From Ahaetulla prasina (taxonomy: Eukaryota; Chordata; Lepidosauria; Squamata; Colubridae): a stretch of DNA of 64,000 nucleotides. Position 1 is the stretch's first letter. Every line of letters starts with the position of its first letter. Location: the NCBI RefSeq assembly GCF_028640845.1, contig NC_080544.1:60030711-60094710 (forward strand), read 5' to 3'. The notes beneath the pieces were generated by a model that ran no database searches, was not told the DNA's origin, and worked only from the letters and a program-made list of their open reading frames with translations. The translations under genes were made by a program, and so were the position numbers. This document shows, piece after piece, positions 19,297 to 61,019 of this stretch.

Positions 19297-19905
19297 TGGC
19301 AGGTTTGATAAGGATGTGACCCCAAAGCTTCCAGTTTGAAAAGAGTCATAGGAAAACAACACTGAAATGTTAAAGAGAAATGAAGACAAGGAAGAAAATA
19401 AGCAATCTTGGGAATTTACTGGGTGGAAAATGAAACATACATTTTCTTCCTACTCACATACAAATACAAGTTGTGTCTGTGCTGCTGACATAGCCAGCAG
19501 CACAGAGAGAAGGCACCTCTCCCACTACATGCTTGTGGATTTCAGTTTAGGATTTTAGGCAGTCTAACCCACATTTTATCCTCCAAATATACTGAACTTC
19601 AACACCATCCTCCTTAAGCAACACAGTTTAGGAAAACAGTATACATCTTCAGACATTAAGTATTTTGGTAAACATGAGTTTTGTTGATGAGAGGAATATG
19701 CAGAGTTTGCATTTAATTCACAAAATGGTTTGCTATACCTAACAGAAAAGTTATTGAGGGTTACATGTTAACCTTCAAAAGTCGGATGTGTGTGTGTTTG
19801 CCAATCACTTTCTCTCAGCCCTAGGAGGGAAGCAACAGCAAACCAATTCTGAAACACTGCTAAGAAAACTGCAGGGATTTTTCCAGGAAGTCATCAGGGG
19901 TCAAC
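19297..19905. other. Intergenic, no gene recognised
   Basis: Unique sequence of about 600 bases between the hAT complex and LINE copy B; nothing identifiable. Confidence 0.4.
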
Positions 19906-19910
19906 TGATG

Positions 19911-21411
19911 TTGAGAGTGTGGTGGCATATCAGTTACCCCAGTACCTGGATGAATCTGTCTATCTAGACCCGTTCCAGTCCGGTTTCCGGCCCGGGTACA
20001 GCACGGAGACGGCTTTGGTCGCGTTGGTGGATGACCTCTGGAGGGCTTGGGACAGGGGTTATTCCTCTGCCCTGGTCCTGTTAGATCTCTCAGCGGCTTT
20101 TGATACCATCGACCATGGTATCTTGCTGCGCTGGTTGGAGAGTTTGGGAGTGGGAGGCACTGTTTTGCGGTGGTTCTCCTCCTATCTCTCTGACCGGTCG
20201 CAGACGGTGTTGACAGGGGGGCAGAGATCGACTTCAAGGTGCCTTAATTGTGGGGTGCCCCAGGGGTCGGTTCTCTCACCTCTCCTGTTCAACATCTACA
20301 TGAAGCCGCTGGGTGAGGTCATCAGTGGTTTTGGGGTGAGTTATCAACTGTACACTGATGACACCCAGCTGTACATTTCCACCCCGGACCACCCCAATGA
20401 AGCTGTCGAAGTGCTGTCTCAGTGTCTGGAAGCCGTGCGGGTCTGGATGGGGAGAAACAGGCTCAAGCTCAACCCCTCCAAGACTGAGTGGCTGTGGATG
20501 CCGGCATCCCGGTACAGTCAGCTGCAACTGCTGCTGACTGTTGGGGGCGAATCATTGGCCCCAATGGAGAGGGTGCGCAATCTAGGCGTTCTCCTGGATG
20601 GACGGTTGTCTTTTTAAGAGCATTTGGCAACCGTCTCCAGGATAGCCTTCTACCAGGTACGCCTGGTTCACCACTTGCGCCCCTTTCTAGACCGGGATTC
20701 CCTATGCACGGTCACTCATGCCCTCGTCACCTCTCACCTAGACTACTGCAATGCTCTCTACATGGGGCTCCCCTTGAAGAGCACCCGGAGGCTCCAGTTG
20801 GTCCAGAATGCAGCTGCACGGGTGATAGAGGGAGCCACTCGCGGCTCCCATATAACACCTCTCCTGCACAAGCTGCACTGGCTACCTGTGGTCTTCCGGG
20901 TGCACTTCAAGGTGCTGGTTACCACCTTTAAAGTGCTCCATGGCATAGGACCCGGATATCTACGGGACCGCCTTCTGTTACCATATGCCTCCCACCGACC
21001 GGTGCGCTCCCATAGAGAGGGTCTCCTCAGGGTGCCATCAGCCAAACAATGCCGGCTGGCGACCCCCGGGGGAGAGCCTTCTCTGTGGGGGCACCTACCC
21101 TCTGGAATGAGCTTCCTCCTGGACTCCGTCAACTTCCTGACCTCCGGGCCTTTCGCCGCAAGCTGAAGACGTATTTTTTCTTCCGAGCAGGACTGGTATA
21201 ACATGGGTTTTAAATTGGATTTTAAACGGGGTTTTATATCATGTCTTTTATAGTTTTAATTTGGCCAATTGTTGAATAAGTTTATTAAATGGGTTTTATT
21301 GTATATCGTATAGTATTTTTATCTGGCTGTTAACTGCCCTGAGTCCTTCGGGAGAAGGGCGGTATAAAAATTAAAATATTATTATTATTATTATTATTTA
21401 TTATTATTACT
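19911..21411 (+). mobile_element. L2/CR1-group LINE, 5'-truncated (copy B)
   Basis: Same family as the element at 1-1802. The RT box reads YTDD (20351-20362), so both catalytic aspartates remain. The frame is broken by TAA at 20615-20617, where copy A has GAA, and by a one-base loss near 21075. Ends in the GGGAGAAGGGCGGTATAAAAAT region and an ATT-repeat tail. Truncation removed everything before mid-RT. Confidence 0.88.
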
Positions 21412-23737: not shown

Positions 23738-25722
23738 TTGATAGTATGGCCTTTATTGTCATTGTACATCATATATACAACGAAATTGGTTTTAGCATCA
23801 CTAGTGCAATCCATGACAAAAATACAAACAACATAAACAGTATAAAGAATAATCCCTATGCAAGTAATTAGGGGGGGAAAAGAAAAACTAGTCATACATT
23901 TCCACATATGCGTAGAGTGATTATAGTTGTGTTTAAGAGTCTGACAGCCCAAGGATAAAAACTATTTTTAAATCTATTTGTTCGGCTGGCTATGCTTCAA
24001 TGTCTTCTGTCTGATGGTAGAAGTGTGAAGAGACACTGACCAGGGTGTGAATCATCTCTGAGTATTTTCCTTAGTCTGCTAAAGCAGCGAGATCTGATAA
24101 TGTCATCCAGTGGTGTTAGAGAGCAACCAATGGTTTCTTGTCCCGAATTGATCACTCTCTGTAGTGCCTTCCTGTCCGCAGAAGTTAAACCAGCTTACCA
24201 TACTGTAATTTAGTATGTGAGGATAGTTTCTATCATGGACCAATACAAAGAGGTCATCAGCCATTATTCCACCTGATTTTTTTGCAGGACTCTAAGGAAA
24301 TGAAGTCTCTGTTGGGCCTTGCCAATCACCAGGGACGTGTTGTTTTTCCAGGTGAAATCTTGACTAATAAGCACTCCCAAGAATTTAAAAGAGCAAACCC
24401 TCTCCACACAGCCCCCCTCGATATACAGTGGGGCAGGTTCCTCTCTGTACTTCTGGAAATCTAGCACCATCTCCTTTGTCTTACTAGTATTTAGATGTAA
24501 GTTGTTTTTTGAGCACCATTCGGATGGATACCTTCTGGACTTCTTCCCTGTATGCGGATTCGTCCCCTCCAGTTATGAGACCCAGCACCGTTGTGTTGTC
24601 TGCAAACTTTATTATGATGTTGGATGGATCAGAGGATATGCAGTCATGTGCATACAGCAAGTACAGGTAGGGGCTGAACACACAGCCCTGAGGGGAGCCT
24701 GTGCTGAGCTTCAGGGTGGAAGGTGTAAAGGAACCAACCCTTACTGTTTGTGGACAATCCGTCAGGAAGTCTTTGATCCAGTCACAAGTGAGGGGAGGGA
24801 AATTCAGGTCAGTCAGCTTTTCAATGAGAATGCCTGGGAAGATGGTATTAAAGGCCGAGCTATAGTCTACAGAAAGAATTCTGACATAATTCCCAGATTT
24901 CTCAAGGTGGCTCAGTGCAATATGTAGAGCAGTGGCAATGGCATCCCCTGTTGACCTGTTGCTTCTATAAGCAAACTGGTGTTGATCGAAATTTGGTGGA
25001 AGACAGGACCTGAGGTGTTGTAGGACCAGTCTCGCAAAATATTTCATCACTATAGATGTCCATGCAATGGGCCTATAGTCATTTGGGCTGTTTATGGCTG
25101 CTTTCTTCAGAACTGGGATAATTGTGGCTGCTTTCAAGCATGATGGGACTCTAGCCTGTTTCAGGGAGATGTTAAAAATCCTTGTTAGTACCCCTGTTAA
25201 TTGGTCAGCACAGGTTTTTACTACTTTCCCCAGCACCACATCTGGACCTGCAGCTTTGTTGGGAATTACAGCCTTCAGCACAGTTCTCACTTGATGTTCA
25301 TCCAGGGTGAGTGGCTGGAGGTTAGAGGGCCTTTGGGCTAGACCCACAGTCTTTTGACCTCAAAGCGGGCAAAGAAGCTATTTAGCTCCTCCACCAGCAG
25401 GGCATCAGCATTGGCTGTTTTTTTCATATTGCCCTTATAGTTGGTTAGATTTGTAGCCCCTGCCACACCTGTCTTGAATTATTATCTTCCAGATGCTTCT
25501 CTACCTTTTGTTTGTATTTCTGTTTAGCCGCCTTAATGCCTCTCCTCAAGTTTGCCCTGGCCTCGTTATATTCATCTTCATTTCCTGCCTTGAAGGTGGA
25601 GTTTCGGGCTCTCAAAAGTGATTGTACCTCTGCTGACATCCAGGGTTTACGATTACTTTAAATTCTGATGCACTTATTCACTGTTACATTGTCCATGCAT
25701 GTTTTAATGTAAGATAGTACAG
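23738..25722 (-). mobile_element. Rex1-like LINE (RT domain to 3' end)
   Basis: On the minus strand: an upstream linker (RGIKAAKQKYKQKVEKHLEDN, about 25560-25450), then a frame at 25347-24484 with NKAAGPDVV, KTCADQLTGV, NDYRPIAWTS, VDYSSAFNTI, STGSPQGCVFSPYLY and FADNTTVLGLI. Next are FKFLGVLI and a decayed end with a HP.Q.LF.LLPS.RR-like block. The 3' end is the short CATTGTACATCATATATAC region typical of Rex1 tails. The catalytic box is FADN, not FADD, and several frameshifts are present, so it is dead. Confidence 0.8.
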
Positions 25723-26934: not shown

Positions 26935-27387
26935 TGAGATGAGAGAGAGAAAGAGAATGAAAGAGAGAGAGAATCAGAGAGAGAATGAAAGAGAAAGAAT
27001 GAGAGAGAGAGAGAGAGAGAGAATCAGAGAGAAAATGAAAGAGAGAGGAGAGAGAAAGAAAGAGGGGGAGAGATATGAGAGAGAGAAAGAGAGGGGGAAA
27101 GAGAGAGGGGGAGAAAGAGAATGAGAGACAGAATGAAAGAGAGAGAGAATGAAAGTGGGGGAGAGAGAGAAAGAGAGAGAACGAGAGGGGGGAGACAGAG
27201 ATGAGGGAGAGAGAATGAGAGGGAATGAGTGGGAGAGAGAAAGAGAGAGGGGGAAAGAGAGAGAGAAAGAGAGAATGAGAGAGAAAGAGTCAGAGAGAGA
27301 GAGAGAAAGAGAGAGGAGGAAAGAGAGAGAGAAAGAGTCAGAGAGAGACAGAGAAAGAGAGAGGGGAGAGAAAAAGAGGAGGGAGAG
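26935..27387. repeat. GA-rich simple repeat tract
   Basis: About 450 bases almost purely purine on the + strand, made of GAGAGA, GAGAAAGA and GAATGAGA units. Open frames across it on both strands are low-complexity artefacts. Confidence 0.93.
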
Positions 27388-29965: not shown

Positions 29966-30430
29966 ATACCAGTATGCTACGAATTTATTTGTGATGTTCA
30001 TTTTGTTTTCTGAATTTATAGAGACCCAACCCTAACCATAAGTGGATTTGCCTACCCAATGAAGTTTTCCTATATATATTTCCAAGAAACGTAGATAAAA
30101 AAGGCTCAAAAAATCAGCACCATCCTAAATATATTAATACGCTATGAATCCATTGGCCATGTTCATTTTGCTCTCTGAATTCATGGAGACCTAACTATAA
30201 TCCCAAGTGGATTTTCCCTGAAATGGGATTTTCCCATGCATTTTACCAGAGGACATAAATATTGCAGTTTTGAAAAGTCAGCACCTTCCTAAGCATACCA
30301 ATGCACTATAAATCTTTTGGAATTATTCATTTTGTTGTCTGAATTCATGCAGCCCTAACACTAATCTTAAGTGGATTTGCCCCTCAATGGTGTTTTCCCA
30401 TTTATTTTCCCAGGAAACCTAGATAAAGCA

Positions 30431-30874: not shown

Positions 30875-32085
30875 ACTGCACAAGAACTTAATCTTATTAG
30901 CGCATTGGAAGGTGGGGCTGAATCAGAGGGAGAAGCTTGCTAATTTGGACTTCAGTAAGGCATTTGATAAAGTAGACTACAACCTACTATTCGAGAAGAT
31001 AGAAATATGTGAGTTAGAGAGCATCACCACCAGATGGATTCATAATTGGCTGACCAACTGTACTCTACATGTAGTCTCTAATGGATCTGCATATACATGG
31101 AGGAAAATATGCAGTGGGTACCCAAGGCTCTCTCTTTGGCCCAGTATTCTTCAATATCTTCAACAATGACTTAGATGAGGGGATAGAATGGGAACTTGTC
31201 AAATTTGCAGATGACACCAAGGGGAACTTGTCAGATTTGCAGATGACACCAAGCCAACGCTCCTGAAGATAGACTCAATATACAGAAGGATTTGAACACT
31301 GGGCTCTGTCTAACAAAATAAAATTCAAGGATAAGAAAAGTAAGAAGGCAAGAAAATCCAAATGCACAAGTATAGTATACATGGTACCTGGTTCAATAGC
31401 AGTAACTGCAAAAGGGATCTTGGAGTCTTAGTGGACAATCTCTTAAGTATGAGCCAGCTGTATGCTGCAGCTGCCAAAAAAGCCACTACAGTCCTAGACT
31501 GCATTAACAGAGGTTTAGAATCATGTGAAGTGTTAGTGCCATTTTATAATACCTTGTTAAGACCACACTTGGAATATTGCATCCAATTTTGGTCACCATG
31601 ATAAAAAGAAAAGATATTGGGAGTCTAGAAAGATTGCAGAGAAGAGCAACAAAGATGATTAGGGGACTGGAGGCTAAAATAAATGAAGAACGGCTGCAGG
31701 AATTCAGTATGTCTAGTAGTTTAATGAAAAGAAGGACTAGGGGTGACATGATAGTAGTGTTCCAATATCTAAGGAGCTGCCACAAAAAGAGGCAGTCAAC
31801 ATTCTGCAAAGCATCTGAAGGCAAGATAAGAAACAATGAATGGAAACTAATCAAGAAGAGAACCAACTTAGAACTAAGGAGGAATTTCCTGACAGTTAGA
31901 ACAATTAATTAGTGGAATGACTTGCCACCAGAAGTTGTGGGTGCTCCAACACCTGAAGTTTTTAAGAAGAGATTGGATAACCATTTGTCTGAAATGATAT
32001 GGGGTTTCCTGCCTGAGCAGGAGTTTGGACTAGAAGACCTCCAAGGTCCCTTCCAACTCTGTTATTCTGTTATCAGGTCACCTGA
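30875..32085 (+). mobile_element. Decayed CR1 LINE
   Basis: Broken reading frames hold the CR1 RT and C-terminal blocks in order: LDFSKAFDKVDYNLL, then [13 protein letters not shown], then VKFADDTK, then RDLGVLVDNLLSMS, then RPHLEYCIQFW, then LERLQRRATKMIRGL, then RRNFLTVRTIN and WNDLPPEVV. A TAG interrupts just before WNDLPP. The 3' end is TTCCAACTCTGTTATTCTGT, typical of CR1. A 31-base segment around the FADD motif is tandemly doubled (about 31193-31254). Confidence 0.88.
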
Positions 32086-32156
32086 AATATTCAATGTGTT
32101 AACCAGATTCAGATTGGAACTGTCATTATTTCTCTTTAGCAAACTTGTACTAGACC

Positions 32157-32275
32157 AGTGTTTTCGAAGTTGGTAAATTTAAGATGTATGAACTCCAATT
32201 TGCAGAATTTCCTTTGCCTGTTCACTAGCCAGTTTTGGGAATTGAAGACCTCACATCTTAAGGTTCTCAAGTTTA
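32157..32275. mobile_element. Degenerate palindromic MITE
   Basis: CAGTGTTTTCGAAGTTGGTAA with a partly inverted second half (CATCTTAAGGTTCTCAAG). Resembles a short hAT-like palindrome common in squamates; the ends are eroded. Confidence 0.45.
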
Positions 32276-32456
32276 AAAAAAACATGTATTAGACTTAATC
32301 ATTCTTAAAGGAATTGAATTACTAATTCAATGAAACTTCAAGTAGTTATTTTACACCCCCCCCCCATGGTATTATTAAAATACGAACTATTAAATAATTC
32401 TTAGAAGTCCTATGCCACACTTAAAGAGGTTGAGTGAGACAGCCAACCTGCCATGC

Positions 32457-34138
32457 CGAATATAACCCGGTGTGCCTCTTTTTTGGAAAAGCAACAATAT
32501 TTTTTTGCCTAATGCCCATCCCCCTGATCTCGCAGTAGCCCATGGGAGGGCCATTAAAGGGCTCTCTTTCTTGAAGCAGTCATCAGCGCCTTCCTTTCTC
32601 TCCAGCAAGCGCCCACTCTCCCAAACAAATCACAAGGACTTTGGATGATGGAGGTGGCGCCGGCAGATTCCCTAAAGAACTCAGAAGAACTTTAGGTAGG
32701 TAGGGGAGGGGCAGCGGGGGAAACCCGATCACCTGCAGACAAGGCACGCCCCGGGAAGAAGGAATCCCGGGAGACCACGGAATGCAGCAGAGTTTTTTTC
32801 GCAGAGCCGGGAAAAAGGCTGAGTGAATCTCTCCGGATTCTGGCAGAGTCCCAGTCTCTTTCCCGGCGCCCCGCGGAGAGAAGCGCTTCGCCGCGCAGCG
32901 CCTCGTAAAAATTCAACAGGCGTGGTCAGGAAAACCTGTAAAAAGCTGACCCGGTTGAACTTCTGTTGTCAAATCGATGTGAAAAGTAAGTGCACCCGAC
33001 GGTTGTGGCACAGCACTAGGCCAGACAAAGAGGAGAAAGCAGATGAGTCCAGCCGTTAGGCCAGTGTTCTCTGCTGTCGCCCAAGTACATAAACTGGATT
33101 GGAGTTTCAGAAATATACAACGGTCAAAGGTAAAGTTGAAAGCAATATAGGGTAAGATAGAAGGGGCCCTTAGATGGTCCTTGGATGAACCCAAAGCTGT
33201 CGTGTGAGCTTGAAGAAAATCCGCCGCCCCAACACTCCCTGAATATACTGTAGTTATTGCATAACTCATGATTGGCAGGTCTTCCAGCAGCCTCATTCGC
33301 TCCGCCTAATGGTAAAGCTGGAGGAGCGGAGCTCTGCGGAAGGAGTGGAGTATCTTAAGCCTGCCTCTGAGCCTGCTGGGAATGCCCCGACTTGGAGTAC
33401 ATGGGCAGCCGCCATCGCCCCGGTGCAGAGGGCTCCTCTCGGCGCAAAGTGGCGCGCTTGCCTCCTTATATGTGTCTCGTGGCAAGGCATTCCTCTAAAG
33501 GCTACGTATAAATAAATGACCCTTTCAGACATACTCCTAAACTGCGAAGATTCGATATAGGGACCAAGGCACCAACTTCAACTTCCCAGTGGAACTTTAT
33601 TTCAAATAAATAAACAAACAAATATGTGGAAACTGGTAGGAGATAACGTGCATATCTACTCCTACATCCGGACAGCAGGGCAGTTTTGAGCAAGAGCTTA
33701 GAAGAATTCAGAAGTTAAGATAGTTTTCATCATAGTAAAAATACTGTATTGGCATCTTTAACGATGCTCTAAGATTTTAACTTTTTTCTATGCATTATTT
33801 TGGCTCCAATTAAAAAGCATCTAGAAGCTGGAACAATTTACACTTTTACTGTGGAAGCGAGCCCGTATTACCAAACAGCGCATACGTGAGGTGTATGGTA
33901 AAACTCCACTTCTTCAAACTGTGTTGACAATTACAAATGTAGTTGCCACAAGTGGAAAACTTTCGCTATCGAGTAAAAAAAGGGAAAGAGTACAGTTGGG
34001 TGGGGGGACCAATTCAACGTGGAAAAGGATCTTAATGAGTATTTCTCTCTCTTTTCTCTCTTCTTTTCCACCTTCTGCAACCCACCCCTTTCTTCCGGGG
34101 CCGGAGGAATCTGTGCATTGGGAGACGCAGACTATGCG
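32457..34138 (+). repeat. Tandem duplicate copy 1 of a CpG-rich unique segment
   Basis: 1,682 bases, repeated at 34139-35834. It contains a CpG-rich core at about 32640-33000, a good splice-donor-like gtaagt at 32986, and GCCGCCAT at about 33409. The open frames in it lack recognisable domains. No retroelement features, so the duplication is of ordinary sequence. Confidence 0.92.
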
Positions 34139-35834
34139 CGAATATAACCCGGTGTGCCTCTTTTTTGGAAAAGCAACAATATTTTTTTGCCTAATGCCCA
34201 TCCCCCTGATCTCGCAGTAGCCCATGGGAGGGCCATTAAAGGGCTCTCTTTCTTGAAGCAGTCATCAGCGCCTTCCTTTCTCTCCAGCAAGCGCCCACTC
34301 TCCCAAACAAATCACAAGGACTTTGGATGATGGAGGTGGCGCCGGCAGATTCCCTAAAGAACTCAGAAGAACTTTAGGTAGGTAGGGGAGGGGCAGCGGG
34401 GGAAACCCGATCACCTGCAGACAAGGCACGCCCCGGGAAGAAGGAATCCCGGGAGACCACGGAATGCAGCAGAGTTTTTTTCGCAGAGCCGGGAAAAAGG
34501 CTGAGTGAATCTCTCCGGATTCTGGCAGAGTCCCAGTCTCTTTCCCGGCGCCCCGCGGAGAGAAGCGCTTCGCCGCGCAGCGCCTCGTAAAAATTCAACA
34601 GGCGTGGTCAGGAAAACCTGTAAAAAGCTGACCCGGTTGAACTTCTGTTGTCAAATCGATGTGAAAAGTAAGTGCACCCGACGGTTGTGGCACAGCACTA
34701 GGCCAGACAAAGAGGAGAAAGCAGATGAGTCCAGCCGTTAGGCCAGTGTTCTCTGCTGTCGCCCAAGTACATAAACTGGATTGGAGTTTCAGAAATATAC
34801 AACGGTCAAAGGTAAAGTTGAAAGCAATATAGGGTAAGATAGAAGGGGCCCTTAGATGGTCCTTGGATGAACCCAAAGCTGTCGTGTGAGCTTGAAGAAA
34901 ATCCGCCGCCCCAACACTCCCCGAATATACTGTAGTTATTGCATAACTCATGATTGGCAGGTCTTCCAGCAGCCTCATTCGCTCCGCCTAATGGTAAAGC
35001 TGGAGGAGCGGAGCTCTGCGGAAGGAGTGGAGTATCTTAAGCCTGCCTCTGAGCCTGCTGGGAATGCCCCGACTTGGAGTACATGGGCAGCCGCCATCGC
35101 CCCGGTGCAGAGGGCTCCTCTCTCGGGCGCAAAGTGGCGCGCTTGCCTCCTTTATATGTGTCTCGTGGCAAGGCATTCCTCTAAAGGCTACGTATAAATA
35201 AATGACCCTTTCAGACATACTCCTAAACTGCGAAGATTCGATATAGGGACCAAGGCACCAACTTCAACTTCCCAGTGGAACTTTATTTCAAATAAATAAA
35301 CAAACAAATATGTGGAAACTGGTAGGAGATAACGTGCATATCTACTCCTACATCCGGACAGCAGGGCAGTTTTGAGCAAGAGCTTAGAAGAATTCAGAAG
35401 TTAAGATAGTTTTCATCATAGTAAAAATACTGTATTGGCATCTTTAACGATGCTCTAAGATTTTAACTTTTTTCTATGCATTATTTTGGCTCCAATTAAA
35501 AAGCATCTAGAAGCTGGAACAATTTACACTTTTACTGTGGAAGCGAGCCCGTATTACCAAACAGCGCATACGTGAGGTGTATGGTAAAACTCCACTTCTT
35601 CAAACTGTGTTGACAATTACAAATGTAGTTGCCACAAGTGGAAAACTTTCGCTATCGAGTAAAAAAAGGGAAAGAGTACAGTTGGGTGGGGGGACCAATT
35701 CAACGTGGAAAAGGATCTTAATGAGTATTTCTCTCTCTCTTTTTCTCTCTCTTCTTTTTCCACCTTCTGCAACCCACCCCCTTTCTTCCGGGGCCGGAGG
35801 AATCTGTGCATTGGGAGACGCAGACTATGCGCGA
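34139..35834 (+). repeat. Tandem duplicate copy 2 of a CpG-rich unique segment
   Basis: Copy 2 starts exactly where copy 1 ends (junction around the shared cga). Differences found by eye are few: one C/T change at 34919, and small length differences in CT, G, T and C runs near 35120, 35150 and 35735-35785. I estimate identity above 98 percent. After it the sequence continues as unique DNA. Confidence 0.92.
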
Positions 35835-38800
35835 TCTTTGGTTTAAATTGGATCTGACATCGAACAAAACAGCCTTGCAAATATTTATTCGGAGCTTGGG
35901 TCCCTGGGACATTTGAGCTCATCCCGAAGAGAGCTGCGGGCAACTGGAGAGGCGGTGTGGCTCGGCATCCTAAGTGAAGATGCGGGGGAAGGGTGCCTGA
36001 ACAGATGCCCTTCCCAATAAGATCGTCTCCCAATCACTTAGCGGCGGCGGCAGCAAGGCAAAGGCCATCTGGCCTGTTATTCTATAGCGGGGAAGGGCTA
36101 TATTTGGGGGTCCCGGGACCAACTGGGAATTGAAGCGTTGTTACAACAGAAGCACTGGATACATGTATGTATTAAGCGCACATGGGGAGGGAGGAATAAT
36201 ATTAATTTTAAATTCTTTCTGAAGGATTTGCAAATATTTTCACAATCACAAAAGAATGAATTGCGAATCTTTTGCTCCCATATTCGGGTTCCTGGTTAGT
36301 CACCACCATTACATTTTCTGGCCCGATTATTTGATTCGGAGCAAAAACATCTCTCTCACAGTAAGTATTGAATGCTTTCTGCTACTACAACTAGAAAACT
36401 TAAAATTGGGTATTTATCCCTATAGTAACCTTGTCCTCCCTAGGTAAATTGGCTTCTGTAGATAAATTGCACTACAGTTCCCATTATTCCAGTTTTTGGC
36501 CATGTCGGCAAGCAATATGAGATTATAGGGGAAAGCAGTTAGGAGGCCAGAGGCCTCTAGGGAAGAAGAGGACTCCCTTGTTTTTAAGTTTACATATATT
36601 TTCGACAATTTCAACTCACTGCATATTTGAGAATATTTCACTAAAGAAAACAATGAAAAAAACACAATACATTACAGTTTCCTTTACACCTAAGAAAACA
36701 TTATGGATTAAGTGCTCACAGGCTTTCAGCAGAAAGGACAAATCGGATGTATTACACTCCCGTTTATAATCACATTCGATGCCATGAATAGTTGATGGAT
36801 TACCTGATTGATTAACAGATGGATCCTTCCAGCATTTTTAACTGAAAAGTCTATTAATTCTGTCACATATCAAACTATACAGCGGATAGATTCATAATAG
36901 TTTAGCAATATAATCGCTAATTTGCCCACGAAGGGGATGTTTTTAAACCCAATGTCTAAATTCGTATCCTTCCTTCCAAACGCTGGATTCCTCTGAGTCA
37001 GGTAATGAAAGGGCTTCAAGTCGAACTTCCTAAGGATGCTGAAAAAAAAACGGAGCCGGCATTATACAGGTGTCGCCTCAGCGCCAACTATTTCTCAGAC
37101 GAAGGATTAAATTGATTTCCCTCCTCAGCGATTTTCATCCGAAGGATATCGCCAGCCACTCATTCTTGCTCTTTTTCCAAATTTCTGGTTGGTTGGTTGT
37201 GGATTTTATTGCAAGATCTCCCACAAACGAATTAAAAACACTCCAAAATAACTCTGAAGCGAAAGATGGACATTCTTTGATGGACGCTCGTTCGGCCACC
37301 AGCCGCCCCGGAAAGTTACGTTGCGTTCGGACCCCGTCGGGATTTAGCTCATTCCCTTGGCCTTGGTCCTTCGGCGGCCTGCCCAGTTCGCCCACGAATC
37401 TTCTCCAAATAATCACCCCGACCCAGTGGGGGGAACATTTCATTTTAATTTTTTACCTGTTAGTGAGAGGGCTACATCCCCATTTTTCAAGCTCCCCCTC
37501 CCCCTCCTCCCCGCTCATGGTTCTGTTCCTTTGGGCCGACGAGCCTTCTAAATCTGGCCAGCAGATCATTTCATTAAAATTTAATGCCCGTCAATTGCCT
37601 GACATAAAAAATATGGATCCCATTTAAAATATTAATACTTTAATGCTTGCAGTGAAATAAGCTAGGCCCCCGAGGGCCCCAAATCAATTCGCCAGAAGGC
37701 TCTCCTCGTTTGGCCACCGGCTCTGAGACATTTTTCTTATGCCGTTATTAACTTCTGTCAGTTGCTTACCCAATTAGTGCTCACGAGAGGAGGAAAAGTC
37801 TTCAAAGAGAGCAAGCGAGGGAATCGCTCTGCTCCTGAGAAACCCAACGATGAAAGCGAGGCCCGCCGCGAACTTTGGATCGCAGGAGAACTCGGGGCAG
37901 TGATGGCCGGCCAGCCAGCTACATAGGACCACTGGAGGATAAGAGAAGGAAGGAAGCAGTGGCGCTCACATCTCTGGCGTCCAAGAATAGCTTCGGTCGT
38001 CTTCCACTCCAATTCCCACCACCTTAGCCTCTGCCTCTGATCATGGTGAAAAGGAGTACTAGGACTTGAGCCCAGTGAATGTTCTTGTGATAGGGGTTGG
38101 AGGAGGCTGTAGTAGCTTAAGCCACAAAAATGTGGTAGCATCTCAAAGTAGGTCTTAGGAAGAAGTCTTAAGATGCATCAGTTCGAAATTTACACCCCAT
38201 GTAAAAAATCTGTTATAAACTAGAAAGCCAGGAGTCTGACTGCTGTGCAAGGGTTTTGCCTAAAGAGTTCAAAACAAAAGCCACCAGTCTTCAGTATGCA
38301 ATGTATTATACCACTGGAGTTTTCCCACTTGCGGTATGATCCGGGGGAACAGCATGACACTTCACTACCCTGAACTCATGTACTTGGAAGAAAATGCTCT
38401 TTCGAAAGAGCTTTCCTTTGGGTGAGCACTCTCCCCATTTACTGGGTGAACAATTGACAGTATTGTAATATCTGGGGTATTATTGTAAAATCGGGTATAT
38501 CTGGGCTTCCGCTGACTGTACCTTGAACTCGTGGCCCTTGGCAGGCTGCTCTGACCAAATGAAGCAATGGAAAAGTTGTTTTCACAGCAGAAAACGAATA
38601 AATATGTGTTCTTTTAATATTATTAAGACTCACTGCAGGGGATTTATGTCCATCTGTGCTCTCTACCTGATTTCAAAATAGTTTGAAAAATGAACCCTCT
38701 AACCATTCTTCAAAAATAAAAGAGATCACCGTCTCAACTCAATGTTTTCCAGACTTCTGAAACCCAAAGTCCAGGTGGGAGACTCTTACCAAGCAACTTT

Positions 38801-43229: not shown

Positions 43230-43713
43230 ATGGATCATTTAGGGGTGCACCACCTCCACCAGAGCCACGCCGAGCCCATTAGCTTTGGAATCGACCAGAT
43301 CCTGAACAACCCGGACCAAGGCAGCTGCATGATCTCCAACGCGCGGCTGCAGGACGCGGCGGACTACGGCCTGGGAGGATGCGTGGTGAGCAGTGCTTAC
43401 AACCCCATGAGTGGCCACTACGGCTCGGCCCCCGGCGGTGGAGGGTCCTCCTCCGTCGGGGGCTACGGTAACGGCGGCGCCTGCAGCATGGCTTCGTTGG
43501 CGGGTTCCTACAACCTCAACGTCGGGGTCGGAGCCATGAACGGAAATAACCTCAACGCGGCCGGGGGCGTGATCCGAGTGCCGGCCCACAGACCCATGGC
43601 CGGCGGCGTCCCCCAGCCACTCCCCACTGCCGTGCCCACCGTGAACAACCTGACGGGGCTGACCTTCCCCTGGATGGAGAGCAACAGGCGCTACACCAAG
43701 GACCGCTTCACGG
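43230..43713 (+). CDS. TLX1: TLX1 (HOX11) homeobox transcription factor, coding exon 1
   Basis: Seen: this exon encodes residues 1-161 plus the first base of codon 162 and ends at a consensus donor (gtgagt at 43714). The ATG has a good Kozak context, with A at -3 and G at +4. Residues 19-25 (FGIDQIL) form an EH1 motif. About residues 60-115 are Gly/Ser/Asn-rich. VIRVPAHRP (114-122) is a TLX signature, and FPWM (146-149) is the PBX-contact motif just before the homeodomain. Known: TLX1 is a nuclear DNA-binding regulator needed for spleen formation and for some cranial sensory and dorsal-horn neurons; EH1 recruits Groucho/TLE corepressors and FPWM contacts PBX. TLX1 is preferred over TLX3 or TLX2 because the N-terminus (HLGVHHLH, ending TKDRFT) and the exon 3 C-terminus (ending SVASSCE) match TLX1. 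The Gly-rich linker looks shorter than in mammals. Exons 2 and 3 lie at 48680-48917 and 60797-61019; the joined protein is 314 residues. Confidence 0.97.
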
Positions 43714-48679: not shown

Positions 48680-48917
48680 TGGCCCTCTCACCGTTCACTG
48701 TAACACGCCGTATAGGTCACCCCTACCAGAACCGGACGCCCCCCAAGAAGAAGAAACCGCGCACCTCTTTCACCCGTCTGCAAATCTGTGAACTGGAAAA
48801 GCGCTTCCACCGACAGAAGTACCTGGCCTCAGCCGAGAGGGCGGCTTTAGCCAAGGCTCTGAAAATGACTGATGCCCAAGTCAAGACCTGGTTCCAGAAC
48901 CGGAGAACAAAATGGAG
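48680..48917 (+). CDS. TLX1: TLX1 coding exon 2 (most of the homeodomain)
   Basis: Seen: residues 162-241 of the joined protein. The main acceptor is the AG at 48678-48679, preceded by a long pyrimidine tract. The donor is gtaagc at 48918. The exon adds [13 protein letters not shown], then [18 protein letters not shown] and the homeodomain (residues 185-244, finished by exon 3). Helix 3 reads [11 protein letters not shown], with Thr at homeodomain position 47, Trp48, Phe49 and Asn51. Known: Thr47, in place of the usual Ile or Val, defines the TLX family. A second acceptor, AG at 48714-48715, would join in the same frame at the GHPYQN codons and shorten the protein by 12 residues. That short junction matches the form I recall for mammalian TLX1, while TLX2 and TLX3 keep the longer linker. 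The upstream acceptor looks much stronger here. Confidence 0.96.
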
Positions 48918-50665
48918 GTAAGCACACCAAGCAAGTGAGCTGTTGCTACTGTTGCTGTGTGGGAACATGTTTTTCAGCGGACTAGGTCACTTTCTGGGCC
49001 ATCAAGACCAGACTCTACAAACTTCCAGTAGGTTTCTTCTCCCTCCCCCCCCCCCCCCCCCGCAAACTTCTCAGTGGGAGTTGATCAGGAACAGGGGTGA
49101 TTTCCTAGGGTGAGCATGGTTAGATCTGGTCTGCCAAATGTGAAGCATGCCCCAAGGATCTACTGGGCACAGATCCCGTCATTTCTGGAAGAAGCTGGTC
49201 TCATTTAGGAATCAAAGAACTCATTTGGGTTCCTGTTTAAAAGTTCTTTGTAGGAGGACTTCCCCAACATGGTCCCTCCAAATGCTTAGCAAACAGAGTG
49301 GTGGAGCTCGTGGTAAATATGTGTCTTGCAATTTTGGCATATCTGGAGGGAAATTGATGAATGTTGTGCAGTTTTAATGTCAAAGGGATTGAGAGTTTTA
49401 TCAGAACTCAGATTTTTTTGTATTTGACTTGATCCTACCACCCAATCTGATATTTAATATTTATTTAATTTCATATATATCACTAAGTGTTCATACTTCT
49501 TTTTGAATGTGTCCCTTTATATGTAATACATAGACATTTTTACTACTTTTACCTGATTCACCCACTTCTCCTCCTCCAATTAATGTACGTTATCTACTTC
49601 AAGCTAGCTCTTTCTTATTTCTGGGTAAAAGAGCCTCTGCCTTGACCTTTCTGATTAGTCAAAGTTATTCTAATGCTTAAATTAGGAATCTTTGTGTCTT
49701 ATGTATGCCATTTCCCCCCAAAACATGACCAGTAGATGGGTTGGATATAAACTCCCATAATTCCTAGAAAATACAGTAGGAAATGGAGTCCATCTTTTTT
49801 AACCATTGAGATATATGTACAGGACTTCCTGTCCATCATGTGACTTTTGCTGTGGTGGAACATATTTCAATCATCATATATTGGCTTCTGTCTCCCATTT
49901 GTTTTGCTTTGGAAGCCAGCAATCTTTCTGATCTATTTTAAGCTTGGAACAGATGCTTTGAAAACTGATTGGTTAAAGCTGAGTCTTGGTTTATTGGCTG
50001 ATGGACTGGAAATGGTGGGGAGGGACTGGTTCCTGTGAGTTGCCATTCAAAATGAAGACAGCCAGGTTTGTTGTGGAAAGACAGCTTCCGTTGCTAGAGC
50101 TACAGGAGAAACAAACCAAGAAAAACTTTTTCATAGTGAGGTCTGATGCATCCGGTCTTCAGTCTTTGGAAACAAGTAAGGAATTTCAGAGGCTGTACTA
50201 TATGTACCATCTCTCATTCTGGGTGACTCTTCACCCATTTTACGAGCAGAATAGAGGTGGGGCTGACATCACCCACAGCAGAATCCCAAGCCATTTCCTT
50301 TGCTATTTTATGACTCAGCAACAGATGGGAGGGAGGTGGCTAGAAGTGGCTTAAACCATTAGTGTTCTGTATTTCTAGAAATGTTGTCTTTAAAATATTG
50401 GATAAGCTGCTCTGACATTTTTTGTTCCTTGTTCTACTTCTGATCTTTAAGTTGTCTAGGCATATGCTTAAAATATTGTTCCTGGGAACAACACAGGATT
50501 TAAGCAATATGAGGGGGTTTGTACTGAGAAGCCCACAGGTATTGAGGGCAAAATTTCATTGTTGGGACTGATCTAAAACTGGAGAGGTGAGCTTTCTTTC
50601 TATTGCTAGGACTGATACAAACTGTTTGGGCAGCAGAGGAGAAAGAATTTTCATGGCAGCTAAAG

Positions 50666-50794
50666 CAGGGGTGTCAAACTCCGTGTTGTTGTCATGTGAC
50701 ATATTGTGTCTTTTCCCCCCTTCCCTAAAATGGGGGTGGGGATGGCCAGCACATGATGCATCTGGCCCGCTGGTCTGCAAGTTTGATACCTCTG
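50666..50794. mobile_element. Small hAT element
   Basis: 129 bases from CAGGGGTGTCAAACTC to AAGTTTGATACCTCTG. The flanks agctaaag (50658-50665) and agctagag (50795-50802) match at 7 of 8. Confidence 0.85.
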
Positions 50795-51444
50795 AGCTAG
50801 AGACACCTAGGAGCTAATCTTTATTAAAGCAGCTTCCGGATAGATGAACTAGAAAGGATTGAACAGCGTCCCTTAAAAGAATAACTCAAGGACAATCTTA
50901 TTTTGCAGTTTCAATAAGTTTTAATGTAATCTGATCAACTAGATTGTCTGTGTATGCTATCATAAATATATAGCCTTGAAATTCATGAAGTTCCTAGTGG
51001 TTTTATTATAAAAAGTCTTCCAGACACCTACCATGAAGCCAGATATTAACATCCTGCTTAAAAATGACTATAGAGGCAAACAAGCTATTCTCCCATCTAA
51101 AATTTTAAATAGATAGTTTGTCTTTACCTGGACTTAAGGAGGCAATATAGGCAGCATAGTTGGTCTTTTCTCAGTGTAAGAAGAGGATAATCACTTCACA
51201 AGAAAATGATATGCTGTTATAGACATACAGTATATTACTCAGTTCTGACTTCTTACAGCCCTGAAAATTTGGTCCTTACATCCCCATAGGGAGTCTATAG
51301 CATTAGGATGGAAAATAAACAGTTTCACCTTTGAAAAAAAAAATCAACAAATATGAAGTATTTTCTCAGAATAGGGATATGGAGGGAGTGGGGACTAGTG
51401 ATATTGAAGTTCAATAAAAAAAGAAAATGCTAACATCCTGAATA

Positions 51445-51799
51445 CAAGTATTCCTCGACTTACAGCAGTTCACTTAGTTCAAAGTTACAACGGCAGAAAG
51501 TGACATGACCATTTTTCTTACTCATTGCAGCATCCTCATGGTCACATGGTTTACATTCGGATGCTTGACAGCTGACTCACATTTATGACGGATGCAGTGT
51601 CCCGGGGTCATGTGATTACCTTTTGCAACCTTCTGACCAGCAAAGTCAAGGGGGGAACTAGATTCACTTAACAACCATGTTACTAATTTAACAACAGCAC
51701 TGATTTACTTAACAAATGGGGCAAAACTCACTTAACAAACTTCTCACTTAACAACATAAATTTTGGGCTCAATTGTGGTCATAAGTTGAGGACTACATG
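51445..51799. mobile_element. Tigger/mariner-like non-autonomous element
   Basis: Inverted ends around ATTCCTCGACTTAC and its complement TAAGTTGAGGACTAC, with ACTTAACAA motifs inside and TA at the left flank. No transposase. Related to 56028-56438 and 58247-58634. Confidence 0.7.
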
Positions 51800-51971
51800 T
51801 TTCAAGCCATTATTATGTGTGTAATGCTAGGAATGATACATTAACATATTAAGGTAAGGCTTGTAATCATGGAATGGATACCAGTTATCTAGGAATACAA
51901 ATATTAATAAATAGAATCTTTTTTTAAAAAAAGCTACAACCAACCATACTAAAAATAAAGACACCCAATGC

Positions 51972-51993
51972 ATATATATATATATATATATAT
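51972..51993. repeat. AT dinucleotide microsatellite
   Basis: About 11 AT units in TLX1 intron 2. Confidence 0.9.
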
Positions 51994-52019
51994 TTGCAAA
52001 TGCATTCCAAATTAAAACA

Positions 52020-52720
52020 ATAGCTTCTCTTTTTTATCTTTATTAAGAGATTTTATACACTAATAAAAATCAAGATACTATATAAATGAAAAGAAAAAGA
52101 ATAAAGAAAGCAGAGCAAGTGAATAAGTACAAGACATACTGTAAATAAGGAAAGAAAAGAAATAGAAAAAAATACATCAAGCTTTGGCTTCCAACTTACT
52201 TTATAGCAATTATAAATTTTTCATCTATCCTTCTTCTTTATAATTACATCATAATTCCCTTCTTCCCATATTTTTCTCTTTCTAATTATCAAATCCATAA
52301 ATCATTAGTTCATTTTTTCCCATTTTTAGCAAAAAGTCCATAAAGGTTTCAAGTCACTAATAAATGTATTTGTCTTCTTCCTAATCAAACAAGTCAGTAT
52401 TGCATTTTTCAAGTTTTATCATTTTTACCAATCATTGCTCTGTTACGAGTATTTCAGAATCTTTCTGTCTTTGTGTATATAGTAGTCTTTCTGCTGTACC
52501 ATATATAAAGAAAACAATATTCCAGGAGTTTCTTCAAGTCATACATTAAAAAAAATCAGGTTTCTTATGTATTAAACTTTAAAATTCTTTGCATTGTTGT
52601 ATGTATTTGTACCCAATATTTTCTATTACAAATCCATTATGCATAGTAAAATAACCCTTTGTGTTTTTCACATTTCCCACCAGGTATCTTTATAGATTCT
52701 TGTTCTGGTATCATATACCA
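52020..52720. other. AT-rich segment, possible old LINE non-coding region
   Basis: Strongly strand-biased AT-rich sequence with polypurine (52080-52180) then polypyrimidine (52220-52330) stretches. No coding sequence; the LINE suggestion is weak. Confidence 0.25.
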
Positions 52721-53549
52721 ACAGTACCTCATTTTAGATTTGTCTAAAAGTGAGAATATTTAAATAGATGTTTAAATATTTAGTAGTTGACATTACAGTA
52801 CCTCCTCTTTTATATTTATGCCCATAATTGATCATTGGAAGAATTCATGGTTCCAGATGTTATAATTCCATTTGAAGTACAGCATGTTAAACTTTTCTAT
52901 TAATCAGTATGTCATAGGATATCTGGAGCTACATTTCTTGGCCCCTATTTAGTTAGCAGATTTATTAATAATTAGAACATTTTGAATCCTCTCTCTCTCT
53001 CTGGGTACATCATTCATTTTTTTAAGAGCAATAAAACATTATAAATAGGGCATTTGTGTTATTGGCATTTAATCATGAATGAAGAATACATTTCTGTTTT
53101 TTTTTTATTTGATGTGTCCATCTGTAATATCACTATAAGCTGTTTTATACTATAAATATGTCCTGAAAATGCTATTAAGGATGCAGTCCTATGCCAATAT
53201 ACATAGGAATAAGCCCCACTGAATAAGTAACATCTATTTCTAAATAAGCATGTGTAACATAATAATTAGCTTAAATTATATATACAGAGAAATGCATATT
53301 GTAAAAGAGCCAGGAAAGGTGTTAAAGTAAGAAGAAGCCCAGGCTTATGTCTGACCCCAGGCATGAAGGCTCACTGGATGACTGTGCCATTTATTGCCCG
53401 TCATTCCAGCTGTCTCCATTGGACTGCTGTTGGAAGAATAGGCAAAGGGAGTGTAAACTGATGGAGTAAAAGCAGAATTGGATATAAAACAATTAAATTA
53501 ATTATTGTAAGTAGAGATTGAGGCAGAATTTTTAACACACTACCTGACT

Positions 53550-53812
53550 CTGTGGTCTCTTCCCAAAATCCCAAAAGCTTTAACCAAAAACTGTCTACTA
53601 TTGACCTCACCCCATTCCTAAGAGGACTATAAGGGGCATGCATAAGAGCACAAAAGTGCCTACCGTTCCTGTCCTATGTTTCCTTTCATTATATCAAATT
53701 AATATAGTTATTGCATACTTTTGCTCATATATATGCTTATATGATGTATTGTTGTTTTATGTTGATGCTTGTGTATACTGTTGTGACAAAATAAAATTTA
53801 AAAAAATGATAT
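53550..53812 (+). mobile_element. CR1-like LINE 3' end in TLX1 intron 2
   Basis: Begins in the coding end (the CTACTATTGACCTCACC region ahead of AGGACTATAAGGGGCATGC) and ends in CTGTTGTGACAAAATAAAAT. Same family as 12440-12905 and 45768-45975. Confidence 0.8.
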
Positions 53813-54805
53813 TGAGTTTTGTAGGCTCAAAGGGTTTTATATCTCAATTTTAGAAATCGATGTTGAAGTATGCCTTCTCATAACACTTTAAATAGGTAAC
53901 ATATTCAGGCCCCAGAAGCATTTTTTCCCAGCTCAAGAATCTAATACCTTCCTTATATGTGGCTTTCAGCTCCCAGAATTCCCCAAATAGCATGTTTATT
54001 GCTGAGAATTCTGGGAATTTCCTAACACCCAGGTTGGAGAAAGGTGATGTATTTGGTAGGTCTTGGAAGTTTCCTTTTGAAATGAAAAAGGTTATGAAAT
54101 AGCCTTTACCTATGAAAGCTTCCTGGCTTTATGTGTTATAATGTCACCAATCTGAATTGTTCTTAACTTTGCTAAATATCAGTCATAGCCTACTAGTATG
54201 TTGCCATACAGAATCATCCAAAAAGCCAAGGACTCAGCCTGTCTGAAAGCTGGCAAGAAAAAAGAACTTATTTTGCACACTTGCCACCAGCAAAGCCTAA
54301 ATTATACACAACCAAGATAAAAGAATGCCAGGAAAATTATTGCAAGGAAAGAGACATGAACATGGTTGGTATAAATAATGAGTCCAGCTCTGCCAGAGAC
54401 CAAGAATGGGAATCTGCAGGAATCCATTACTTGAGCTCTGTTTATAAATTTACTTTTGTCAGTGGATTGTTCTATATGAAAAACAGAACTATTATTGCAG
54501 AAATTGCTACACTGAACTTGGAAGACTTTATTCTCAGATAAGATTGTACTGTCTTTACAGTTGTGGAATAACACATTTTTAACACTGCATGTGCAATATT
54601 GGACACCACTTGGTTTGCCCATATATGATGCTTAGCAACTACTCCCTTACTTTGTCTTTCCAGTTTACAATTCAAAGTGGGGCTCAACATAACACAACAG
54701 CATGTTATTTTTGGGATTGCCTCTTCATGAGGTTAATCAGGTTAATAAGGATGGGCATGTTCCAGGTCTATTCCTTTAAATGGTGCCATCTAGTAGGACT
54801 TTGGA

Positions 54806-55042
54806 AGCAATAGCACTTAGACTTATATACCACTTCACAGGGCTTTACAGCCCTCTCTAAGCGGTTTACAAAGTCAGCATATTGCCCCCAACAATCTGAG
54901 TCCTCATTTTCTGACCTCGGCAGGATGGAAGGCTGAGCTGGTGAGACTCAAACTGCCTAACTGCCAAATTGCAAGCAGCCGGCACTCAGCAGTAGCAGCC
55001 TGCAGTAGTGCATTCTAACCTCTGCGCCACTGCAGTTCTTAC
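54806..55042 (-). mobile_element. Sauria-type SINE in TLX1 intron 2
   Basis: Full-length on the minus strand: TGGCGCAGAGGTTAGAATGC head, ACTCAGATTGTTGGGGGCAA block, TATATAAGTCTAAGTGCTAT end. Confidence 0.85.
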
Positions 55043-55354
55043 CCCTGTCCCTTGCCCCTATTTTATGGAATACTTTCCCCTTAAGATTTGGCATCCCTCA
55101 CCCTTTTGTCTTTCCAGAAGAGTGTAAAGGGTTAACTGTTCCCCAAGGCATTGGAAAAGGTAAGGTTAGAGCCTGAAGATTGTTCTGTTCAATGGATTGG
55201 ATATTGTTGGCTAGGCACAAGGCTGTACCGTATTTGTTTTTTATTGTTATTGTGAGTCATCCAGAATTGGCCACAAAAGTGTCTCAAATAAATAACCACC
55301 TACCCAAACAAATGACTTCTGTGTAGATTTCAGGGAAGCATTCCTTTTCATATT

Positions 55355-55480
55355 AACTTGGACAGTCAGTGTGGTATAGTGATTAAGGTGTTGGGCAAGG
55401 AGCATGGAAACCTAGGTTCTAGCCTAATCTTAGTCATGGAATGCAGCTGCAGCCAATCTCTTCCTCTTATCACTGACAGG
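55355..55480 (+). mobile_element. Truncated tRNA-derived SINE
   Basis: Head AGTGTGGTATAGTGATTAAG and B-box-like GGTTCTAGCC, as in the SINE at 5384-5616; the tail region is lost. Confidence 0.55.
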
Positions 55481-56027
55481 TTCGGCAACAAGCTAGGTGA
55501 TAAACAGAACTTTTTGATAACTGTTATGTGAGAACTAGGCGAATACAGTGCAAAACAAGCAGACTCTGCACTTAATTGCAACAAATGCTGGGAAAAATAG
55601 TCCTCCTTCCGTATTTCCTTGGGCAGTTTTTTAAAAAAAATTCTCAAAAAGCCTGCTTATCTTCTATATCAGGCATACAACAAGTGTGATCGAGAGACAG
55701 CTCGTCTTTTATGGCTACAAAGTTTTCTAGAATGTTTGGTTCCTTTCCCTGCAGTTTGAGTTTGTGATGATTTTAAGAGATAAAATGGATGCCTTAAGCT
55801 TTTCTGATATTTATGAACCCTCCTTTAAGAATGGGCCTTTCCCATCAATGCAAAACCTGGAAAGGAAACCAGGACATCAGAAGAGTTCAAAGTGCAGCAC
55901 TACTAATTTTGTCTTTAAAATAATAACTTAGGAGGCAGATTGGATTGGGAAAGGGTGACTGGCCCAAGTTACTCAGTGACTTCATTGGTCCAGTGAGGAC
56001 ATGAAGCTGGGTCTCATCAGTCCAATA

Positions 56028-56438
56028 CAGATGGTCCTTACTTGTAACTGTCTTGTTTAGCAACCATTTTAAGTTGCAACAGTATAAAAAAGTCAGATTT
56101 AAGATCAATCTTTGCATATTTGACTATTGCAGCATCCTATAGCTTGCAGGACTACCGTTCCGGCATTTTGTAGCTGGCATGCATTAAGGACCATTACAGA
56201 ATCCATCATCACATGATTGCTATTTGTGTGCTTCCCAATCGGCTTGTGTCAAGCAGAGTTAATGGAAAATGCGGAAATAAAATCATAAGTCGTGGTTACA
56301 TGATGTTTTGCTTAAAGACTATGGTGACTCACTTAATAACTGAATGGGAAGTAAGATCATAAGATTTTTGTCTTAGCAGCCACAGATTAGCAACAGAGCT
56401 ACTGGTCCCAGTTTTGACAGTTAAGCGAGGACTTCCTG
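56028..56438. mobile_element. Tigger/mariner-like element, degenerate
   Basis: Inverted ends (CAGATGGTCCTTACTTGTAA and TTAAGCGAGGACTTCCTG), TA at the left flank. Internal GACTCACTTAATAAC and ATCACATGATTGC motifs match the other two copies. Confidence 0.65.
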
Positions 56439-57670
56439 TGTTCTAATGCACCAGGGTTTATTTCAGAGTAGGTGTGCACAGGATTTCATTCCTTTTGTAA
56501 TTAATATATGCTGGACTGTACTCAGAAGCAAATATTTCTTTTCTTCTTCTTCTTTTTTTTTGACAATGTTTCCAAGGTCCCAGTGCAGTCTGGATGGAAC
56601 TTTTCCCACGAGACATTTCTTCTCAGTGCCAGGAAAGCTTTACTTGAATTTGCATATTTCCAATTAAGGCAATGAAGGTCTGGCTGAAGAGCTGTAACTA
56701 AGCTGCTTTCTATTGCAGTCTTGAAACAAATTGAGGTGGGACGTGCTGCTTACTTTATTCTTTCCTTACTGCCATCCCCCAAGCCTGGGCTTTGTTTTTT
56801 GTTCTTTAACAAATTACTGCTTTTCTCTGCCAAGTGAACAACTTGGCTAACTGAGAAAAATATTCCATATTGAAATTAATAAATCTGTTTTCACTAATTA
56901 CAAACACAGCTAAAGAGCAACAGAAGAGGCCCGATTACATTTCTCTGAGTCAAAACAATATTAAATATGCATCAGGAGTAAATTTGTAGTGGAAAGAAAA
57001 CGGTACTTTTTATTCATGCAATTTTTTTTGTTAGAGGATGAGCAGAATATGGCTTTAGAATCCTTCTCCCAGTACACACACAGACCCTCGCATAGTGCAT
57101 TTGTAGACACACACATATACAGAGGGCTGAATTTAAAACATATTATTTATATGAAAAATTAACACACATTTAAACTATTTGTTCTCAACATCCCCTTCAA
57201 GAAATATTGGATCAAGGCTCCCATCCTTCTCAATCATTGCAAATGCTGAGAACCGTAGTCCCAAATAACCCGAAGGTACCAGACAGGATGAAAAAGGCAT
57301 AAGGGTATTTTTAGAGCATGATTGTTAAATGAATCACATGTCTATTCAGCACCCTAAGACAAATAATCCCCTTCCACACACACATTATGTCCTAGGGTAC
57401 TGTATACAAGCCTTTCACAATACACACCTTCAGTTTTATGTTAATCAACTCTAAGGAGTTTTTTTACAGTTATGTGTGGATGTAAAAATTCCACAACCAA
57501 AGCATCTAATTGCTCATCTACTCCAAAACTGTTGCATGTTTATTTGAGCATGCAGTATTTTTTAGTTCTTTGAGCATGCAGTATTTTTTAGTTCTGGTAC
57601 TTCCTTATCTATGGAGGTAGGTATATTCTTTCTCTCATGTTTTGGCTGCTGCAGTGCCTTGAAGGGATGA

Positions 57671-57863
57671 AGAGCCGTTGTGGCACAGTGGTTAGAATGC
57701 AGTACTGCAGGCTAACTCACTGCTCACTGCAGGAGTTTGATTCTGAGGTCCGTAAAATGAGGACCCAGATTGTTGGAGGCAATGTGCTGACTCTGTAAAT
57801 TGCTGTAAAGAAGGCTGTAAAGCATTGTGAAGTGGTATATAAGCCTAAGTGCTATTGCTATTG
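57671..57863 (+). mobile_element. Sauria-type SINE, + orientation
   Basis: GTTGTGGCACAGTGGTTAGA head (A box) and ACCCAGATTGTTGGAGGCAA block, ending TAAGTGCTATTGCTATT. A short internal deletion after the B box. Confidence 0.82.
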
Positions 57864-58246
57864 GGTAAAATCAACTCACTTGCTCTCAGGAGCGCTGTTC
57901 ATGGTTGTAATTTCAAATCTGCCAATCAGATCTGAAATATTTTTAATAGGCAGTTGATGGTTCTACTCTTAATACAGAAATGTTGGTCATGACCTAGTAA
58001 AAGTTAAATATTCGAAGCCACAATGAATTCATAAGATCAGGTTATAAACCTGCTTTGAAATCAGATTGATCTAAATGCTGTACCTATTTAAAGTTGTTTG
58101 TGTTTAGGGCTTGGATATTTTTTTGCATTTTCTTTTAGGTGTCATCTCCTGTAAGTTACAGTGATATCAATAGGGCATTTTTTGTGCAAAAAAAGCATAG
58201 TTTATATCTAAGCATAAATCACTTTCAGAAAGAGACGTAAACTTCT

Positions 58247-58634
58247 CAAATATCCTTGACTTAAAACTACAATTGACCCCAAAATGTCCATTGCTAAGCA
58301 AAGCAATTTTAAGTGAGTTGCACCTCATTTTATGACCTTTTTTGTCACAGTTGGTAAGCAAATCACTGCAGACGTTAAGTTGTTAAGCAAATCTGGCTTC
58401 CCCCATTGAGTTTGCTTGTTGGAAGCCAGCTGGGAAAGTTATAGATGGTGATCATATGACCCCAGGACAGTACAACTGTCATAAATACATGCCGGTTGCT
58501 TTGTGCCAAATTGTAAACATGTGACCATGAGGATGCTGCAGTGGTGGTGGGTGTGAAAATTGGTCATAAATCACTTTTAAAGTGCCATTGTAACTTCAAA
58601 AGGTCATTGAATGAATGGTTGTGAGGACTACCTG
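58247..58634. mobile_element. Tigger/mariner-like element
   Basis: Ends CAAATATCCTTGACTTA and GTGAGGACTACCTG, followed by TA. Internal GATCATATGACCCCAGGACA and GTGACCATGAGGATGCTGCA blocks match the copy at 51445-51799 in inverted orientation. Confidence 0.7.
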
Positions 58635-60796: not shown

Positions 60797-61019
60797 GCGG
60801 CAAACTGCAGAAGAACGGGAAGCAGAGCGGCAGCAAGCCAATCGCATCCTCATGCAGCTCCAGCAAGAGGCCTTCCAAAAAACCATCAATCAGCCCATCC
60901 AAGCAGACCCAATCTGTGTTCACAATTCCTCCCTCTTTGCCCTCCAGAACCTTCAGCCATGGTCAGATGACACTTCCAAGATCACCAGCGTTACTTCTGT
61001 GGCCTCTTCCTGTGAGTGA
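60797..61019 (+). CDS. TLX1: TLX1 coding exon 3 (homeodomain end and C-terminal domain)
   Basis: Seen: the acceptor is ttctcttag ending at 60796. The split Arg codon AG|G is completed and the frame runs to TGA at 61017-61019. The exon encodes residues 242-314: [17 protein letters not shown], a Gln-rich helical stretch ([10 protein letters not shown]), the conserved [13 protein letters not shown] block and the Ser/Thr-rich end [10 protein letters not shown]. Known: the block after the homeodomain is shared by all TLX proteins, and the SVTSVAS.CE ending is typical of TLX1. No frameshift or stop is present, so the gene appears intact. Exon lengths of 484, 238 and 223 bases add to 945, which is 315 codons including the stop. 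Confidence 0.97.

Follow-up and report, generated by a model that had tools for sequence, protein, structure and literature searches.

Does the near-identical tandem repeat that precedes TLX1 in the genome sequence of Ahaetulla prasina record a doubling of DNA in the snake, or did a single segment enter the sequence file twice? In the window (the whole stretch of DNA that was analysed, 64 kb), a head-to-tail repeat occupies 32457-34138 and then 34139-35831 (to 35834 with the common CGA included), with the following parts, none of which has a strand.

32457-34138: copy 1 of the tandem repeat, 1682 nt, with the shorter form of all eight differing runs
34139-35834: copy 2 of the tandem repeat, 1693 nt plus the common CGA
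34139-34141: junction CGA, identical to the first bases of copy 1 (32457-32459) and to the last of copy 2 (35832-35834)

The copies are 99.3% identical (blastn; 1696 columns), and their best alignment contains 1681 matching columns. A first-pass annotation of this DNA had described a tandem duplication at these positions, with copies that abut and overlap by a cga, and the alignment bears out both statements: the copies abut, and CGA at 34139-34141 is common to them. A near-identical repeat of 1.68 kb lies far outside what chance would produce; apart from it, the window has a single exact direct repeat of at least 40 bases, one of 49 bases (456 versus 20081). The 1.68-kb repeat contrasts with an older, clearly diverged tandem repeat at 30109-30413 (164-bp unit, 1.9 copies, 77% matches).

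The repeat ends 7.4 kb and begins 10.8 kb before the start codon of TLX1, in agreement with its earlier placement 7-11 kb upstream of this gene, which has a role in spleen development and whose coding parts are listed here.

43230-43713, plus strand: TLX1 exon 1, coding part, start codon at 43230
48716-48917, plus strand: TLX1 exon 2, with most of the homeodomain
60797-61019, plus strand: TLX1 exon 3, coding part with the stop codon, completing a spliced protein of 302 aa

The spliced product of 302 aa has no internal stop, carries the homeodomain (Pfam PF00046, E 3.3e-21) and agrees with the annotated protein of Ahaetulla prasina in 302 of 302 residues. Among the best 120 of 1528 proteins, the next full-length snake sequences were those of Liasis (97%), Crotalus (97%) and Protobothrops (96%), and the shorter entries were Candoia (98% over 76% of the query) and, lower, Python and Ophiophagus; the entries compared are clusters at 90% identity, in which other colubrids may be hidden. 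Intron 2 (48918-60796, about 11.9 kb) is long compared with that in man.

A transposon or a retrocopy was considered as the identity of the repeat and rejected, as no sign of either appeared in the tests made (blastn, inverted repeats, Pfam). Copy 2 searched against the window (blastn, E 0.01) matched only itself and copy 1, no inverted repeats of at least 40 nt (20-base seed) were found in 31500-37000, and two stop-free frames, one of them crossing the junction, gave no Pfam match at E 0.01. There was no match to phage records, and a scan for bacterial promoters and terminators was disregarded because it is not meaningful for vertebrate DNA. The stretch just left of the repeat resembles the 3' end of a CR1-type LINE. 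Farther left, two reverse transcriptase fragments match Pfam RVT_1 (19853-20614, plus strand, E 5e-33; 24487-25359, minus strand, E 3.5e-23), the first of which has the 49-base exact repeat in common with 456-504.

The composition of the repeat bears on the regulatory function that had been proposed for it, and two features are needed here.

32580-33608, no strand: CpG-rich core of copy 1, with CpG-island-like stretches at 32580-33098 and 33255-33608, repeated in copy 2
32986-32991, plus strand: GTAAGT, a donor-like hexamer with a counterpart at 34668

The CpG-rich core, already recognised in the first-pass annotation, is thus present in both copies. To the left of the repeat CpG is scarce (2 CpG in 31857-32456), its density climbs within a few hundred bases of entering copy 1, and CpG observed/expected in 500-bp windows is 0.40 to 0.93 from there onward to ~38.2 kb; in 30.0-32.25 kb it is only 0.05 to 0.28. 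Because the left flank is CpG-poor and the DNA stays CpG-rich to ~38.2 kb, the start of the repeat coincides with the left edge of a longer CpG-rich domain. For a developmental homeobox gene, it is ordinary to have CpG-rich DNA upstream.

From the CpG-rich core and a consensus-like splice donor, the same annotation had proposed that a promoter and the first exon of a non-coding transcript might lie in each copy. GTAAGT does stand at 32986 and 34668, but the consensus is weak: the exon side reads AAAA and not AG, the preceding base being A and not G. Its frequency is at chance level, ~0.34 per copy length on the plus strand, and in the 64 kb the hexamer occurs 13 times on the plus strand (the two in the repeat counted) and 11 times on the minus strand. 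No Rfam family reached its gathering score in the whole window, and within the repeat nothing in Rfam matched at E up to 1; both of the sub-threshold matches in 31800-38500 (E 0.53 and 0.69) lie outside it. One of these, a weak ZEB2_AS1_1 match at 36487-36604 on the minus strand (25.2 bits versus a gathering score of 80, E 0.53), is probably due to chance. Protein-coding content was rejected as well: the 130-aa stop-free frame of copy 1 (32916-33305, minus strand) has no Pfam match, and none of 12 candidates proved to be a relative at E 0.001 or better. With a donor at chance level, no Rfam family and no relative of the 130-aa frame, the proposed promoter and first exon received no positive support.

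In man, TLX1 has a non-coding neighbour, TLX1NB. Chicken TLX1 was named among the genes that are paired with an antisense or divergent lncRNA (PMC7686352). The repeat is like these cases in being non-coding, CpG-rich DNA upstream of TLX1, and differs in that its donor, on the plus strand, is at chance level. Nothing ties the repeat to TLX1NB or to the chicken lncRNA, and the accessible portions of the snake TLX1 literature that was found contain nothing on this region. A real duplication that doubles a regulatory region of TLX1 was the reading preferred at first; it gained no positive support here, and nothing in the analysis shows a doubled regulatory element.

The differences between the copies are more informative about their origin, and the alignment places them as follows (no strand applies).

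33240 T in copy 1, 34922 C in copy 2: the sole substitution, TpG versus CpG
33438-33467 in copy 1, 35120-35153 in copy 2: first cluster of shortened runs (TC, G, T)
34042-34088 in copy 1, 35728-35781 in copy 2: second cluster (CT, T, CT, T, C), in and beside a pyrimidine tract

Copy 2 has 11 extra bases spread over 6 gap groups of the alignment; inspecting the runs by eye, we resolve these into eight length changes of one unit each (TC, G, T, CT, T, CT, T, C). The observation that the copies differ mainly in CT and homopolymer runs therefore stands, with one substitution versus eight run-length changes. Copy 1 is the shorter in 8/8 of these (sign test, 0.008 if the changes are independent and 0.5 if the two clusters are the units). 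The five changed homopolymer runs are packed into two tight clusters (permutation among 342 runs, p 0.0016; the test was picked post hoc, when the pattern was already known). Independent mutation would be expected to strike the longest runs, and the finding that 0/6 homopolymer runs of at least 6 bases changed therefore speaks for an artefact. Three of the eight dinucleotide runs of at least 3 units did change, the two longest among them, which counts against an artefact since ordinary slippage would change these runs too. Between young real duplicates, or between two haplotypes, one would expect substitutions together with changes of the longest runs in either direction, and the observed differences fit this poorly.

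The published A. prasina assembly was made from Nanopore reads by NextDenovo self-correction, wtdbg2, NextPolish (three long-read and four short-read rounds; 300-bp insert, 100-bp paired-end library) and Hi-C ordering, with cut-offs of 2 kb for reads and 20 kb for seeds and a contig N50 of 23.87 Mb (PMC9999515), and we infer that the present sequence was assembled by the same method. The 64-kb window is free of N, so that there is no gap between the copies, and this is consistent with such a contig N50. Nanopore sequencing was reported to underestimate the length of homopolymers and short tandem repeats (PMC8486125, PMC11912559). Taken with the one-sided, clustered shortening, this makes it most likely, judging from the letters of the two copies, that copy 1 holds uncorrected Nanopore consensus. 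A 100-base read with the sequence of copy 2 over the two clusters scores 100 on copy 2 and 80 and 63 on copy 1 (BWA-like scoring); accurate reads over the clusters would prefer the corrected copy 2, so that copy 1 would draw few correcting reads. Errors in copy 1 could be frozen in this way in a real duplication too, and this alone does not separate a real from a false one.

The best reading, which we consider moderately probable, is a homotype false duplication, i.e., a single-copy CpG-rich segment upstream of TLX1 that was assembled twice. Two long-read layout pieces with an overlap of ~1.7 kb would have been placed one after the other when they should have been merged, copy 2 would be the corrected sequence, and copy 1, presumably the faulty one, would retain Nanopore shortening errors in two places, the two copies deriving from different read piles. 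The consensus step of wtdbg2 joins layout units that overlap by about 1 to 1.5 kb; a limited literature search found no paper tying such false tandem copies to wtdbg2. False duplication is common in assemblies, having been put at 4 to 16% of the sequence in previous assemblies of three vertebrates (PMC9516828) and, by k-mers, at 0.3 to 2.3% in most of the HG002 assemblies compared (PMC9668749). The VGP authors described homotype duplications near contig boundaries, with copies of differing consensus quality (PMC8081667), a sign that the pattern of differences here would fit. In the parts of the sources at hand, the described cases (PMC8081667, PMC9516828) share with the present one adjacent near-identical copies, error-like differences and, probably, long-read assembly. 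The present case differs in two respects, both of which weigh against an artefact: no N gap separates the copies, though false duplications are mostly gap-separated (gapless unsupported joins were reported too; PMC9516828), and the Nanopore reads of the presumed assembly are much longer than 1.7 kb, homotype length being often, and only approximately, read-sized (PMC8081667). Heterotype and not homotype duplication was also reported as the main source, with sequencing errors a minor one (PMC9516828), and a wtdbg2 assembly of the dog (from Canu-corrected PacBio reads) was comparatively low in duplicated sequence, with less of it than two other dog assemblies (PMC8228171). The CGA microhomology, in turn, would suit a true repair event. 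The earlier warning of an assembly error nevertheless holds, as the clustered one-sided shortening of runs fits uncorrected consensus errors, and the pattern, while real in the sequence file, is probably not real in the snake.

Such an event in the snake would have duplicated the CpG-rich segment upstream of TLX1 in tandem very recently, the duplication being either fixed or polymorphic, and we regard it as possible if rather doubtful. Microhomology-mediated repair at CGA, or template switching there, might have produced it, in which case the run differences would be residual consensus errors or slippage. The gap-free junction agrees with it, and so do its 3 bp of homology, for which the chance is about 0.057 when breakpoints are drawn at random from 30-38 kb. 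The imperfect similarity that surrounds the breakpoints (ATGC-CGA) was rejected as a trace of repair, its chance of 0.55 being no better than random. The single difference, a C/T change at a CpG, belongs to a common kind of natural mutation. Short-read polishing would struggle in a real duplication too, given that ~80% of the 100-mers are identical in the other copy (1273/1583 and 1273/1597). The head-to-tail copies, the microhomology and the repeat ends, at which no transposon was recognised, resemble a true young tandem segmental duplication, whereas the differences between the copies are unlike independent mutations. The clustered, one-directional shortening is better explained by unequal consensus quality; long reads that span both copies of a real duplication should give both the same systematic errors. 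In a version that we hold to be highly improbable, the duplication is young and polymorphic and arose by error-prone microhomology-mediated copying, with clustered slippage in one copy, and by doubling the left part of the CpG-rich domain it would affect the dosage of TLX1 or the expression of a non-coding RNA next to it. The form of assembly error that had been suggested at first, with two haplotypes set in tandem, would be a heterotype false duplication, which we think improbable. This is the main reported source of false duplications, which were, however, located in regions of raised heterozygosity (PMC9516828), and here 1.68 kb contains one substitution versus eight length changes, all in one direction. 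The lone substitution (33240/34922) could be a heterozygous site that was sorted between the copies, but with the length changes clustered and one-way, the haplotypes fit worse than one sequence assembled twice.

If the repeat is false, as we suspect, it is a caution that a near-identical tandem copy next to a developmental gene, even with no gap, can mimic a regulatory duplication, and one-sided run shortening is a warning sign that is visible without the reads. If it is real, it is a very young structural variant adjoining TLX1 that could be typed in snakes that have already been resequenced.

Some further sites in the window are of note with respect to consensus quality. A consensus may fail at the run of ten C at 32356-32365, which lies ~90 bases to the left of copy 1, and at the CT tract, which stops ~70 bases short of the right end in each copy. 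An imperfect (GA)n of ~450 bp at 26936-27387 (period 2, 227.5 copies, 66% matches) is likely to be a trouble spot for long-read consensus and polishing.
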